Shown here one piece after another: positions 12,664 to 15,764 of a stretch of DNA of 48,627 nt (position 1 is its first letter; each line of letters opens with the position of its first letter). This DNA comes from Oscillospiraceae bacterium (GTDB taxonomy: Bacteria > Bacillota > Clostridia > Oscillospirales > Acutalibacteraceae). The notes beneath the pieces were generated by a model. The model ran no database searches. It saw only the letters and a list, made by a program, of their open reading frames with translations, and was not told the origin of the DNA. Position numbers and translations under genes: made by a program. The stretch lies in contig CADABX010000007.1 in assembly GCA_902786285.1 (NCBI GenBank), positions 1 through 48,627 on the forward strand. Direction: 5' to 3'.

Positions 12664-12694
12664 GTAGCGGTCGCCCCGTGGGCGACTAAGGGAA
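12664..12694 (+). repeat. REP-like hairpin, direct orientation (type B)
   Basis: GTAGCGG followed by stem GTCGCCC/GGGCGAC (loop CGT) and TAAGG. The same unit recurs at 13221-13252 and 13302-13333, so three copies flank the transposase gene. Confidence 0.9.
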
Positions 12695-12699
12695 TACTG

Positions 12700-13155
12700 T
12701 CATTCTGCAAGAAAGTAGCAGTCTTCTTTCCATTTTCGTGGATTGTTACGAATATAATGCCGTATTATGCTGTATTCTTTTTCAGTTCTGATAATATGGT
12801 CGTGAAAGGATTTTTGAAAGATCAGGCAGTTGGCTTCTTTGGTGATACGGCCTTTGGTTTGGTTGATAATGTTTGTAATATTGTTGTCATTGTCTGTTAG
12901 TTCCAGCAGCAGATGGATATGATTCGGCATGATAACGTATTCTGTCAGTTGAACAGAAGGGTATACCACAGGAATACGTTCAATGGCTTTGGCTGCTGCT
13001 TTTCCGATATCCGAATATGAGATATCCTCGGTTTCCTTGAAGCTGTCTTTTGTCCAAAAATAATTCTGCCGTTGGAGGGTGCAGATTGTTATGAAATAAG
13101 CACCCACAGAAGAATAATCAAAATGTTGCATCCGACGCCGCTTTTGATACTTCAT
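12700..13155 (-). CDS. REP-associated tyrosine transposase (RAYT, IS200-like)
   Basis: 151 residues from ATG 13155. It is a Y1-transposase-fold protein: YFITICTLQRQNYF at the N-terminus, HUH motif in MPNHIHLLLEL, then the KGRITKEA helix, and a C-terminal helix EYSIIRHYIRNNPRKW holding the candidate catalytic Tyr. The HYIRNNPRKW ending is typical of RAYT rather than IS200 proper. Such enzymes cut single-stranded DNA at GTAG next to REP hairpins. The start at 13155 is chosen because AGGTGAT stands just before it. The body has no frameshift, so it looks intact. The gene is more AT-rich than its REP flanks. Confidence 0.9.
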   Translation of the reverse strand: MKYQKRRRMQHFDYSSVGAYFITICTLQRQNYFWTKDSFKETEDISYSDIGKAAAKAIERIPVVYPSVQLTEYVIMPNHIHLLLELTDNDNNITNIINQTKGRITKEANCLIFQKSFHDHIIRTEKEYSIIRHYIRNNPRKWKEDCYFLAE

Positions 13156-13220
13156 CACTATCACCTGATTCATCATATCATAATAGAAAAGCGATTGCAA
13201 CATAAAAAAGAAAATCATCT

Positions 13221-13252
13221 GTAGCGGTCGCCCCGTGGGCGACTAAGGAGAT
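13221..13252 (+). repeat. REP-like hairpin, direct orientation (type B)
   Basis: Second copy of the GTAGCGGTCGCCCCGTGGGC unit with the same TAAGGAGAT tail, immediately upstream of the RAYT gene start. Confidence 0.9.
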
Positions 13253-13301: not shown

Positions 13302-13333
13302 GTAGCGGTCGCCCCGTGGGCGACTAAGGAGAT
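13302..13333 (+). repeat. REP-like hairpin, direct orientation (type B)
   Basis: Third copy of the type B unit with the TAAGGAGATA tail. It ends 13 bases before the terminator of peptide gene 1. Confidence 0.9.
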
Positions 13334-13345
13334 ACACACCCAATC

Positions 13346-13367
13346 AAAAAAGCCCTCTTTCGAGGGC
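13346..13367 (-). terminator. Terminator of peptide gene 1
   Basis: On the minus strand GCCCTC-GAAA-GAGGGC followed by six T (13351-13346). A compact GNRA-loop terminator. Confidence 0.9.
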
Positions 13368-13383
13368 CGGGGATTCGCTTAGA

Positions 13384-13533
13384 TTACGCACCTGCGGTTT
13401 CGTCTTTGGATTCGGTCGCAGTCGTAAAGATCTTCTTGAGGGTGTCGATGATGCCCTTGAGGGATTCGTTATCGCCGACAAGCTTTTCGATCAGTTCGAT
13501 AAAAGCGTTAAGGATGCCCTTCAACTGTTCCAT
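13384..13533 (-). CDS. Small amphipathic acidic peptide 1 (49 aa)
   Basis: 49 residues, family not recognised: MEQLKGILNAFIELIEKL, then a turn at GDNES, then LKGIIDTLKKIF, and an acidic tail ending in ETAGA. Both segments place hydrophobic residues every 3-4 positions, as in amphipathic helices. There is no Cys and no signal peptide. GGAGG stands seven bases before the ATG (13533). A promoter, a 5' hairpin (13560-13573) and a terminator frame it as a single-gene unit. It faces away from the other four peptide genes, and all five share length, helix-turn-helix design and cis-elements. Confidence 0.75.
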   Translation of the reverse strand: MEQLKGILNAFIELIEKLVGDNESLKGIIDTLKKIFTTATESKDETAGA

Positions 13534-13559
13534 GGTTACGCCTCCGTTTTAAAAATTCA

Positions 13560-13573
13560 TGAGCCTTTGCTCA
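13560..13573 (-). promoter_or_regulatory. 5' mRNA hairpin of peptide gene 1
   Basis: TGAGC-CTTT/AAAG-GCTCA perfect 5-pair hairpin at the very start of the expected transcript. Confidence 0.6.
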
Positions 13574-13581
13574 CTATCCAT

Positions 13582-13610
13582 ATCTTACCATGCATCCCGC
13601 CCAAAAGCAA
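13582..13610 (-). promoter_or_regulatory. Promoter of peptide gene 1
   Basis: Minus strand TTGCTT (13610-13605), 17 bases, TAAGAT (13587-13582). A TTGTAAAC box (13633-13626) lies exactly 15 bases upstream of the -35. Confidence 0.7.
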
Positions 13611-13811
13611 GGGGCGGGGGACAGTGTTTACAATTATTTTTAATTTTTATGATGATTTTGATGCAATTTGACTTGCACTGCATGACGCGCCGGGCAAAGC
13701 ACTGAAAACGGGGCTTCTCCCGCCGGGGAACCCGATCGGCTTTTGATGCGCGCACTTTACCTTGTTAAAATTAACCAAAGTATGAACGGTTCTTTTGTGC
13801 AAAATTGCGGC

Positions 13812-13840
13812 TTGCAAATCTGTGAATAATGTGTTAATAT
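13812..13840 (+). promoter_or_regulatory. Promoter of peptide gene 2
   Basis: TTGCAA (13812-13817), 17 bases, TAATAT (13835-13840). No TTGTAAAC box in the usual place; an imperfect palindrome TTGTTAAAATTAACCAA lies further upstream at 13762. Apart from this and the peptide 1 promoter, the interval 13634-13811 shows no feature. Confidence 0.7.
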
Positions 13841-13914
13841 ATACACGGCATGAGGGAGATGTATACCTGTATATGGAACCCGAAATGACTACTTTAGAAA
13901 GGAAGTACGTTATA

Positions 13915-14073
13915 ATGAAAGATTTTCTTGACAAGATCGGTGCTGCTCTGAACGATCTCAACAATTCTGATCTGTGGGGCTACATCAAGAACATCGTTGG
14001 TAAGCTTGTTGCTCTCCTCCACCTTGAGAAGGAAGAAGAGACCGCTGCGATCATCGAAGACATCTTCGCATAA
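13915..14073 (+). CDS. Small amphipathic acidic peptide 2 (52 aa)
   Basis: 52 residues, family not recognised: MKDFLDKIGAALNDL, turn, then DLWGYIKNIVGKLVALLHL and the acidic tail EKEEETAAIIEDIFA. It aligns without gaps to peptide 3 with Trp21, Lys25, Asn26 and Lys30 shared. Five Lys against ten acidic residues make it net negative, unlike typical leaderless bacteriocins. No signal peptide. AGAAAGGAAG precedes ATG 13915. The unit has its own promoter and a very strong terminator. Confidence 0.78.
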   Translation: MKDFLDKIGAALNDLNNSDLWGYIKNIVGKLVALLHLEKEEETAAIIEDIFA

Positions 14074-14106
14074 GTTGAGCTCAAAAGTAAGAATAGTTAT
14101 TCTTAA

Positions 14107-14136
14107 CACAAAACCCCGGTTCGCCGGGGTTTTGTG
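14107..14136 (+). terminator. Terminator of peptide gene 2
   Basis: 13-pair perfect stem CACAAAACCCCGG/CCGGGGTTTTGTG around a TTCG loop; works in both directions. Confidence 0.92.
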
Positions 14137-14195
14137 CTGCTTTCGGGCAAAGTTTGCCGTTGTTTTGTTTTGGGTTTGCGCGTCCTGTTGTGAGA

Positions 14196-14247
14196 TTGTA
14201 AACGATTTTTTAAAACACTTGCAAAACGAAAAAGCGCGTGATACAAT
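14196..14247 (+). promoter_or_regulatory. TTGTAAAC box and promoter of peptide gene 3
   Basis: TTGTAAAC (14196-14203), 15 bases, TTGCAA (14219-14224), 17 bases, TACAAT (14242-14247). Box spacing is identical to peptide genes 1 and 4. Confidence 0.75.
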
Positions 14248-14260
14248 CAATACAGCAGCA

Positions 14261-14273
14261 GGAAATCGTTTCC
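14261..14273 (+). promoter_or_regulatory. 5' mRNA hairpin of peptide gene 3
   Basis: GGAAA-TCG-TTTCC, beginning 13 bases after the -10 box, i.e. within ~7 bases of the transcript start. The surrounding ACAGCAG..GGAAATC is shared with peptide gene 4. Confidence 0.65.
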
Positions 14274-14309
14274 GGTTTTCGTTGACTTTACAAAAAAGGA
14301 AGTAATCCC

Positions 14310-14468
14310 ATGAAAGAGTATCTTGATAAGATCGATGCGTTCCTGAACAGTATCGTGAAGCATGACATCTGGAAGCAGGTCAAGAACTTCATCAACAAAA
14401 TCAGAGGCATTCTGGAAGACAAGGGCGACGACGACGCGGTTGAATTCATAGACGTGATGGTCAACTGA
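14310..14468 (+). CDS. Small amphipathic acidic peptide 3 (52 aa)
   Basis: 52 residues, closest paralogue of peptide 2: MKEYLDKIDAFLNSIVKH, then DIWKQVKNFINKIRGILED and the acidic tail KGDDDAVEFIDVMVN. Residues M1, K2, L5, D6, K7, I8, A10, L12, N13, D19, W21, K25, N26, K30 and L35 match peptide 2 with no gap. Net charge is about -3. AAAAAAGGAAG lies upstream of ATG 14310. It has its own promoter and terminator and a 60-base leader. Confidence 0.78.
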   Translation: MKEYLDKIDAFLNSIVKHDIWKQVKNFINKIRGILEDKGDDDAVEFIDVMVN

Positions 14469-14492
14469 GACTTCAAAAAGCACAGCATGAAG

Positions 14493-14514
14493 CTCCGGTC
14501 CTCCGGAGTTTTTT
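14493..14514 (+). terminator. Terminator of peptide gene 3
   Basis: CTCCGG-TCCT-CCGGAG followed by six T (14509-14514). Confidence 0.9.
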
Positions 14515-14531
14515 GCTTCCGTTTGCAATGT

Positions 14532-14583
14532 TTGTAAACAAATTTTAAGAACTATTGTTTTTTATTTTTAATGGTGCTACAAT
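14532..14583 (+). promoter_or_regulatory. TTGTAAAC box and promoter of peptide gene 4
   Basis: TTGTAAAC (14532-14539), 15 bases, TTGTTT (14555-14560), 17 bases, TACAAT (14578-14583). Confidence 0.72.
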
Positions 14584-14596
14584 CAAAACAGCAGAT

Positions 14597-14609
14597 GGAA
14601 ATCCTTTCC
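14597..14609 (+). promoter_or_regulatory. 5' mRNA hairpin of peptide gene 4
   Basis: GGAAA-TCC-TTTCC, again 13 bases after the -10 box, the same position as in gene 3. Confidence 0.65.
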
Positions 14610-14643
14610 GAAATCCGACTGCAGCTAAAAAAGGAGCGAAAGC

Positions 14644-14805
14644 ATGATGTCAGATTTGATTCACAGCATTGACCAGACACTCAGAGAACTTGCTGCCGCC
14701 AGCATTTGGGGCTTTGTCAAGAGCATTATCAAGAAAGTCCGCTGGATCCTTGTTTTGGAAGGCGAACACGAAGGTGCCCAGATTCTCGATATCATTTCCG
14801 AATAA
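14644..14805 (+). CDS. Small amphipathic peptide 4 (52-53 aa)
   Basis: 53 residues from ATG 14644, or 52 from ATG 14647: MMSDLIHSIDQTLRELAAAS, then IWGFVKSIIKKVRWILVL and the acidic tail EGEHEGAQILDIISE. Counted from the second Met, Trp falls at position 21 and Lys at 25 and 30, exactly as in peptides 2 and 3. AAGGAG (14631-14636) is seven bases from the first ATG and ten from the second, so both starts are possible. No signal peptide, no Cys. It has its own promoter and terminator. Confidence 0.76.
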   Translation: MMSDLIHSIDQTLRELAAASIWGFVKSIIKKVRWILVLEGEHEGAQILDIISE

Positions 14806-14811
14806 CACACA

Positions 14812-14842
14812 AAACGCTCCGGTATGGCGGAGCGTTTCGTTT
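14812..14842 (+). terminator. Terminator of peptide gene 4
   Basis: AAACGCTCCG/CGGAGCGTTT (14812-14821 with 14828-14837), then CGTTTT. Confidence 0.88.
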
Positions 14843-14860
14843 TGCACCGGTTTGTTGCGC

Positions 14861-14924
14861 GTGTAAACATTTTTTAAAAAATACGCCGGTATCTATTGCC
14901 AATGTTGGTGCGGCGTGCTATAAT
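14861..14924 (+). promoter_or_regulatory. TGTAAAC box and promoter of peptide gene 5
   Basis: GTGTAAAC (14861-14868), then 27 bases, TTGCCA (14896-14901), 17 bases, TATAAT (14919-14924). The box is 12 bases (about one helical turn) further from the -35 than in genes 1, 3 and 4. Confidence 0.7.
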
Positions 14925-14935
14925 CGAACCGAACA

Positions 14936-14947
14936 GGGGAGAACCCC
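14936..14947 (+). promoter_or_regulatory. 5' mRNA hairpin of peptide gene 5
   Basis: GGGG-AGAA-CCCC, 11 bases after the -10 box; different sequence but same position as the hairpins of genes 3 and 4. Confidence 0.6.
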
Positions 14948-14973
14948 GAAAGAACAGAATTGGAGGATACATT

Positions 14974-15129
14974 ATGGATACTATTGTTGAACTGTTTGTC
15001 AAGCTGCTGCAAATGATCTCCCGCATTCTGACCTCGTCCGATGAAGAAGCTCTCGGCTGGATCTTCGGCAAGGGCGCAGAGCTGCTTGACGAAAACAAAG
15101 ACAAGCTGAACAACACCGACGGCGAATAA
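14974..15129 (+). CDS. Small amphipathic acidic peptide 5 (51 aa)
   Basis: 51 residues, family not recognised: MDTIVELFVKLLQMISRIL, turn TSSDEEA, then LGWIFGKGAELL and the hydrophilic tail DENKDKLNNTDGE. The helix-turn-helix design resembles peptide 1 more than peptides 2-4; Trp is at position 29. No signal peptide or Cys. GGAGG lies eight bases before ATG 14974. It has its own promoter and terminator. No transporter, modification or immunity gene lies nearby. Confidence 0.76.
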   Translation: MDTIVELFVKLLQMISRILTSSDEEALGWIFGKGAELLDENKDKLNNTDGE

Positions 15130-15149
15130 GCCAACCACCAACCAACCCG

Positions 15150-15178
15150 AAAGCACCGCACGCGGTGCTTTTTGTTTT
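15150..15178 (+). terminator. Terminator of peptide gene 5
   Basis: AAGCACCG/CGGTGCTT stem around a short loop (15150-15170) followed by TTTGTTTT. Confidence 0.88.
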
Positions 15179-15513
15179 GCGCGGCACAGCGGGCGATTGT
15201 TGTTTTTTCACGGTCATGGATAACATGGAGGGGTGGAAACGGAGCGAAAAGAGATATGTGAATGGCATTTACAAAGGGCAATCCTATTTGGAAAAGCGTG
15301 AATGAGAATTGTCTTTCACACCTCTTTCACACGTCATTCACATCTCTTTCACAGTCAGAAATGCCCTAACGGTGGGCTTTGTCGGGGTTTTGTTACATGA
15401 GATTCTCATTTTGACAAGTAAAAAGACTGAAAAACAGAAAACAGGAAAAAACGGGAAATGTTGGGAAACGCTGGTTGCTCATGTTTCATTCACAATTAAA
15501 AAAAATACAGCGC
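15179..15513. other. Non-coding interval with repeats, no gene seen
   Basis: No convincing gene: the best frame (15216-15305, 29 codons) has no RBS. The interval holds the 11-bp repeats at 15314-15356. It also holds a 9-base inverted pair AATGAGAAT (15301-15309) and ATTCTCATT (15402-15410) that brackets them. Confidence 0.6.
15314..15356. repeat. Four 11-bp direct repeats, TTTCACACCTC type
   Basis: TTTCACACCTC, TTTCACACGTC, ATTCACATCTC and TTTCACAGTC follow one another with an 11-base period. A repeat near one helical turn suggests phased protein binding sites (iteron- or operator-like). A related TTTCATTCACA occurs at 15483. Confidence 0.8.
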
Positions 15514-15514
15514 C

Positions 15515-15764
15515 CGTAGTGTCGATCATCGATCGACTGGGCGCGGAGATCGACCGGTTGACAGCCAAAACAAAGCCGATCACTGATCGGCGCTACAAAT
15601 ATATATAAACAAAGCGCCCGTAGTGTCGATCATCGATCGACTGGGCGCGGACGGCGTGGCACAATAGCCGCCGACACGGCGGCGCTACGGGGCAGCCGTT
15701 GTAGCATCGATCTCCGATCGACCGGGTGACAGCCAAAACAAAGCCGATCACTGATCGGCGCTAC
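15515..15764. repeat. Cluster of six REP-like hairpins in three opposed pairs
   Basis: Direct units with GTAG at the foot of the stem start at 15515, 15620 and 15701 (core GTCGATC-ATC-GATCGAC in the first two). Inverted units ending in CTAC are at 15575-15596, 15667-15688 and 15743-15764 (cores GCCGATCAcTGATCGGC or GCCGCCGacaCGGCGGC). Each direct unit is followed by an inverted one, the arrangement of BIMEs. A ~36-base block ending at 15596 is repeated exactly ending at 15764. All share GTAG with the RAYT-flanking units, though stems differ. Confidence 0.82.

Follow-up and report, generated by a model that had tools for sequence, protein, structure and literature searches.

Arrays of leaderless, acidic, putatively amphipathic micro-proteins in a genus of the Acutalibacteraceae

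Five very short open reading frames (ORFs), here called p1 to p5, lie within 1.8 kb (positions 13346–15178) of contig CADABX010000007.1 from an Oscillospiraceae bacterium of the family Acutalibacteraceae (GenBank assembly GCA_902786285.1), and they raise the question of whether such frames are genuine genes and, if so, what a row of tiny peptides might do for the cell. The window analyzed here is the whole stretch of 48,627 nucleotides (nt). A first-pass annotation had described the five as separately transcribed genes for a secreted or membrane-active peptide set or for small membrane-associated regulators. We find that the array frames are real genes under purifying selection, and we tentatively favor the reading that they encode abundant, leaderless, acidic amphipathic peptides that would act by mass at membranes or other interfaces and resemble in plan the phenol-soluble modulins (PSMs) of Staphylococcus. 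Compared with that annotation, the new elements are a second array in the same genome, spread across the genus, a co-varying stem in the 5′ leaders, an invariant palindrome and, in relatives, neighboring genes for cysteine-rich secreted proteins.

The frames comprise 49, 52, 52, 53 and 51 codons, with p1 (13384–13533) on the minus strand and p2 (13915–14073), p3 (14310–14468), p4 (14644–14805) and p5 (14974–15129) on the plus strand. Each starts with ATG and is preceded at 7–11 nt by a Shine–Dalgarno (SD) sequence, which bears out the good ribosome-binding site claimed for every gene. The product of p4 has 53 amino acids (aa) when translation starts at Met1 (SD spacing of 7) or 52 aa when it starts at Met2 (14647), and the SD spacing favors Met1. 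A sequence-blind filter, which requires 28–68 codons, an ATG start, a strong SD, no overlap with a large ORF, no Cys, no early Pro, a net charge of at most 0 and a high helical moment, and whose thresholds were chosen after the family had been seen, selected exactly p1–p5 in the 48.6-kb window and nothing in 38 control loci (174 kb), in agreement with the five genes of 49–53 codons reported initially.

The search of related genomes that had been proposed in the first-pass annotation recovered relatives in sister species with the frames kept. In one of these (genome G152), counterparts of all five genes are present, p1 again pointing away from the rest, and the array adjoins the same nitroreductase, NUDIX (75% and 77% identity, respectively) and Y1-transposase genes as in the window. 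The relatives of p1 share 54% aa identity in G152 and 66% in G166 (ratio of nonsynonymous to synonymous substitution rates, dN/dS, of 0.20), where the outward orientation of p1 is retained and the inner peptides are swapped for another subfamily. Among 21 peptide pairs, dN/dS was finite in 19, falling between 0.06 and 0.47 in 17 and reaching 0.77 and 0.81 in two, and dS was saturated in the other two; the third codon position was the most changed one in 20 pairs, with one tie. Furthermore, the hydrophobic or polar class of the residue was kept in 78% of 354 substitutions (15 pairs), compared with 51% under random re-pairing. Thus, the loss of frame conservation that had been named as grounds for discarding the genes is not what we observe, and the array frames evolve under purifying selection.

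The peptides p2, p3 and p4 align without gaps and have M1, I8, L12, W21, K25, K30 and L35 in common, including the Trp21, Lys25 and Lys30 singled out before. None of the five contains Cys or, by eye, a signal peptide; the net charges of p1–p5 are −3, −5, −3, −3 and −6, an excess of acid as originally stated, and the peptides carry 0–2 Trp each. With maximal 18-residue hydrophobic moments at z = 3.6, 2.1, 3.2, 1.7 and 2.8 relative to shuffles, p1–p5 are predicted to form amphipathic α-helices and their frames appear leaderless. The first-pass annotation gave p1 and p5 another sequence, but the two are not wholly unrelated: the profiles of the p1-type and p5-type subfamilies can be aligned across 40 columns at an hhalign probability of 66%, the only moderate link among subfamilies that otherwise show mostly weak ones.

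Searches of Pfam, NCBIfam, PHROGs and PADLOC with p1–p5 returned only weak matches, none near the cut-off in Pfam, NCBIfam or PHROGs. A stretch of some 30 residues in Cas12c models matched p5 (E = 0.001–0.014) but was dismissed as chance because it is a helix-sized match to a model of approximately 1000 residues. Profiles of the p2–p4 type and the p1 type had their best match among Protein Data Bank sequences in a designed helical protein (E = 0.02), and there was no Rfam match near the cut-off. Neither phages (searched with p3), plasmids (with one peptide of the second array) nor viral contigs (with two peptide profiles) yielded a match, and no paper treating such arrays was recognized in the titles and abstract openings of the open-access papers searched.

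The array is not a singular feature of this contig. A second one, of eight ORFs (a6 and a8 among them), is located on contig 8 of the same genome (L056, 3262–5820), and the filter identified two singletons in a 400-kb sample of the other contigs, encoding peptides of 37 aa (L231, 5181–5294) and 31 aa (L235, 8915–9010), both on the minus strand; this genome accordingly carries at least 15 such genes. Among 34 genomes of the genus, at least 23 encode at least two adjacent peptides and at least 26 encode at least one, counts that are lower bounds; the loci were reached through three peptide-profile searches and a search with the Cys-rich protein discussed below. The stretches examined of G155, G162, G170, G171, G174, G175, G178 and G179 contained no peptide. 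Searched against a sample of 150 genomes of the family, the queries A1, p1 and p5 produced weak matches only (best E = 0.001, mostly within long frames), and the filter detected no peptide of this class at the loci brought in by these matches. A 709-kb sample of other genera (40 stretches from 21 genomes) gave a single filter match, which we take to be SpoIIIAC. So far, the peptide set appears confined to this genus; peptide sequence drifts fast, so that arrays of unrelated appearance might exist in other genera.

An indication of expression level comes from codon usage. When 277 background ORFs were ranked with a codon table from the 13 array genes, the top ten were all translation genes, namely RpsM, EF-Tu, RplR, RpsG, EF-P, RpsH, RpsE, RpsK, RpsD and RplQ (eight of them ribosomal proteins; the names were assigned by us from sequence). 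With nine of these ten as reference, the 13 peptide genes fell at the 82nd–100th percentile of 268 other ORFs (Mann–Whitney P = 5e-9), a test not independent of the first because its reference genes were taken from the peptide-based ranking. The percentiles of p1–p5 are 99.6, 100, 94.4, 99.6 and 98.9, and those of the neighboring nitroreductase, NUDIX and AMP-ligase genes are 29, 13 and 69. Codon usage resembling that of ribosomal proteins and EF-Tu makes strong expression of the array peptides likely.

The first-pass annotation assigned a sigma-A promoter and a strong terminator to each gene; the promoters are firm for p3 (TTGCAA-17-TACAAT, 14219–14247) and p5 (TTGCCA-17-TATAAT, 11 of 12 consensus positions, 14896–14924), the only two recovered by a stricter consensus scan of the window, good for p4 (TTGTTT-17-TACAAT, 14555–14583) and moderate for p1 (TTGCTT-17-TAAGAT, 13582–13610, minus strand; P = 0.05) and p2 (TTGCAA-17-TAATAT, 13812–13840; P = 0.07). 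For p3, p4 and p5, none of 200 dinucleotide shuffles contained an equally good site. The terminators of p1 (stem and T tail, 13345–13368, minus strand), p4 (14809–14845, reported by the scan on the reverse strand and also seen by eye) and p5 (15149–15180) were detected by a scan, and those of p2 (stem at 14107–14136) and p3 (14493–14514, unlisted by the scan) by eye alone. In a test set of 50 chosen genes from eight genomes (this genome, G000, and G152, G176, G156, G166, G163, G151 and G160), the best sigma-A-type promoter reached a shuffle P ≤ 0.05 in 39 genes, and 46 had the 17-bp spacing, compared with 53% in shuffles under the same scoring. Promoter scores are low where a gene comes second in a pair (for instance G176-4, G156-2, G163-2 and a8 here), so that single-gene units are the rule rather than a law.

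Between promoter and gene, p1 has a 42-nt leader with a hairpin (P = 0.02), and the leader of p2 (13847–13914) carries the stem common to p2-type genes, only four of its seven stem positions pairing in p2 itself. In 11 of 12 p2-type leaders, aligned on hand-picked anchors (GCA ... TGAC) with p4 of this genome excluded, 27 of 33 variable stem positions pair, compared with a mean of 17.7 when the strands were re-dealt, none of 10,000 re-dealings being as good; two of the 11 leaders, both from G166, precede peptides of another subfamily. An automatic fold of the MAFFT leader alignment gave no structure. A 17-nt box with a TGTAAAC core, TGTAAACNATTTTTTAA, lies upstream of the p3 promoter (14197–14213) and recurs before p4 (14533–14549, three mismatches) and p5 (14862–14878, two mismatches); these are the only matches in the window with up to three mismatches, where 0.21 would be expected. 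p1 has the core only, and the box is not general because TGTAAA is found upstream of just 9 of 28 units examined. Finally, 15 nt past the stop codon of p2 we noticed a 24-bp element with a perfect palindrome, TAAGAATAGTTATTCTTA (14088–14111, plus strand; 18-bp palindrome at 14088–14105). With up to two mismatches allowed, the 34 genus genomes contain five matches, all perfect and from four species, every one located 14–17 nt past the stop of a p2-type gene and none elsewhere, and the proteins encoded before it are as little as 27–47% identical to p2. There was no exact match among viral contigs. The palindromic element might serve as an operator or act at the RNA level.

In several relatives, arrays of shorter peptides are encoded downstream of genes for Sec-secreted proteins. 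One such protein, of about 150–180 aa, has 14 Cys that are invariant among the four members aligned, and an amphipathic C-terminal helix (L155–L184); three members had no Pfam match at E ≤ 0.01. Clear members of this protein family are encoded in 33 of the 34 genus genomes (E ≤ 5e-14). The match in G152 (E = 5e-4) is doubtful because signal-peptide-length matches also reach 5e-4, and no member was found at E ≤ 1e-6 in 147 genomes from other genera of the Acutalibacteraceae. Of 30 loci read around the Cys-rich gene, nine have two or more filter peptides within 1.5 kb, and a single one is present in another three; the gene copy in the present genome lies at the 98.9th codon percentile. A second Sec-secreted protein, acidic and with a Lys-containing amphipathic segment (e.g., L145, 6488–6871), is encoded just upstream of the Cys-rich gene in several species.

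The shared residues of p2–p4, the per-gene promoters and the hydrophobic moments uphold the initial view of paralogous, separately promoted, membrane-active-looking acidic peptides; small membrane-associated regulators are disfavored because the ribosomal-type codon bias and the at least 15 genes point to a bulk product. Under the explanation that we consider quite possible, if tentative, p1–p5 would be members of a rapidly diversifying group of acidic amphipathic peptides without leader sequences, approximately 30–66 aa long. Each would be produced in large amounts by a compact, strong cassette that combines a sigma-A promoter, a 5′ leader with a stem-loop, a strong SD and a terminator, with paralogs and arrays supplying dose and variety. 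On membranes or at other interfaces the peptides might adopt one or two amphipathic helices each, and they would serve there neither as enzymes or regulators nor as poisons of the producer; from their apparent bulk expression, amphipathicity, acidic tails and diversity we infer a role by mass action, in which they would coat, act as surfactants or co-assemble, either on the cell surface or beyond it, much as PSMs do. The weakest step is export, which would have to proceed without a signal peptide through an unlinked exporter. A more ambitious version, which we regard as doubtful, is that at least a dozen hypervariable micro-proteins per cell, translated at the level of ribosomal proteins from cassettes of one design, co-assemble with the Sec-secreted Cys-rich and acidic amphipathic proteins into a surface coat, matrix or vesicle system and represent a new genus-defining class in uncultured gut Clostridia.

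Several observations weigh against this explanation. Codon bias is only a proxy for expression; the scores of p3, a6 and a8 are weaker (94th, 82nd and 93rd percentile) and are matched by 10%, 26% and 12% of 50-codon background windows, respectively, and not every translation gene ranks as high as the peptides, with RplO at 15th, RplF at 21st and EF-G at 49th of 277. A hairpin in the first 32 nt is significant in just 14 of 49 single leaders, p2 and p4 not among them. The C-terminal helix of the Cys-rich protein and the second secreted family resemble the free peptides weakly (hhalign probability 9% for the former, 5% and 4% for the latter), so that homology of the helix is not established, and no peptide gene was seen beside the Cys-rich gene of this genome (20 kb read). 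Among the neighbors read there is neither an exporter nor a signal peptide. Moreover, PSM-β, the PSM type nearest in size, is itself described as scarce in S. aureus in vitro.

The same lack of a signal peptide and of a nearby exporter, along with acidity and abundance as judged from codon bias, would suit peptides that stay inside the cell and line the inner membrane or cover storage granules in the manner of phasins or lipid-droplet proteins. We consider this unlikely, given that the peptides turn over rapidly and vary in copy number from one sister species to another and, in relatives, are linked to Sec-secreted amphipathic proteins, all of which fits an outward role better, and that no granule family was found among the neighbors tested. 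An outward role could also be that of a new, acidic kind of leaderless multi-peptide bacteriocin, since leaderless peptides of about 50 aa in diversifying arrays recall aureocin A53 (51 aa) and known multi-peptide operons (PMC11580447). This reading is improbable in view of charges of −3 to −6 and 0–2 Trp in place of a cationic peptide with five Trp, the absence of ABC transport and PH-domain genes among the immediate neighbors tested (SDR, GH127, phosphodiesterase, nitroreductase, NUDIX, HPr and Y1_Tnp), and a ribosomal-type codon bias that would presumably be unusual for a bacteriocin.

Type I toxin–antitoxin modules, in which a small membrane toxin is paired with an antisense RNA and of which Ldr and Ibs form arrays, also come to mind, since the peptides are small, paralogous and hydrophobic and their arrayed genes are mostly monocistronic and followed by terminators. 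Such modules are very improbable here: antisense promoter-like sites, the only antisense feature scanned for, barely exceed shuffles (5 of 50 genes at P ≤ 0.05; mean score 11.95 versus 11.63), and a strong SD, ribosomal-type codon bias and acidic tails argue against them. Hardly credible, in spite of a weak AgrD match (E = 0.01) in one of eight members of the second-array type, are AgrD-like autoinducer precursors, because p1–p5 lack Cys (Ser could still form a lactone) and AgrB, the agr marker, was not found in this genome and scores above the cut-off in only 3 of the 34 genus genomes.

As for the surroundings of the array, the Y1-transposase (RAYT-like) gene (12700–13218) sits between the NUDIX gene and p1, with a Y1_Tnp gene at the equivalent place in G152, and is flanked by three identical 28-nt repeats resembling repetitive extragenic palindromes (12664–12691, 13221–13248 and 13302–13329). 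The far flank consists of HPr and AMP-ligase-like genes here; in G152, genes for a short histidine-kinase fragment (195 aa) and an OmpR-type response regulator instead lie directly 3′ of the array (L057, 6694–8524). Two identical 29-nt palindromic repeats (15516–15544 and 15620–15648) separate p5 from the HPr gene. The G175 contig stops 1128 nt upstream of its AMP-ligase gene, near the point matching this repeat pair, which suggests that assemblies may break at these repeats.

If the codon signal is right, micro-proteins outside the family models searched would rank among the products that these gut and rumen bacteria make most abundantly, and a PSM-like design would have emerged in bacteria other than staphylococci in the form of a large, variable and strongly expressed set; commensal surfactant or matrix peptides of this kind could shape biofilms and host contact. 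Among known systems, AgrD propeptides combine an N-terminal amphipathic helix with an acidic C-terminal tail, a plan that the present peptides share, and differ by the Cys-free sequences, the missing AgrB and the arrays seen here. Aureocin A53-type leaderless bacteriocins are similar in size, lack of a leader and multi-peptide sets; aureocin A53 is described as highly cationic with five Trp, and genes for ABC transport, often together with PH-domain genes, are present in such clusters (PMC11580447), in contrast to the acidic, Trp-poor peptides and the tested neighbors described above. The PSMs share the amphipathic helical plan without a signal peptide, the β types (43–45 aa; PMC12607899) being closest in size, and comprise several peptides from three loci, with the α types and δ-toxin made in bulk. 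Here, in contrast, most genes have a promoter, a leader and a terminator of their own and this genome has at least 15 diverse members; there is no match of p1–p5 near the cut-off to a known family model in Pfam or NCBIfam, no sign of agr control as judged by AgrB, and no Pmt-type or other transporter among the immediate neighbors tested, a genome-wide Pmt search not having been made. Membership in the PSMs or any other family tested thus fails on sequence, in keeping with the original judgment that the likeness to PSMs or leaderless bacteriocins is one of design only. LspU of Staphylococcus aureus, a small amphipathic protein whose gene adjoins that of a secreted lipase, which LspU traps at the surface, and which is itself reported to exit via the PSM transporters (PMC12607899), offers a comparable juxtaposition with a secreted-protein gene, although the secreted neighbor of our peptides is the Cys-rich protein and was seen beside them in relatives only. 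By analogy, the PSMs, LspU included, appear to be the nearest working parallel to these peptide arrays.

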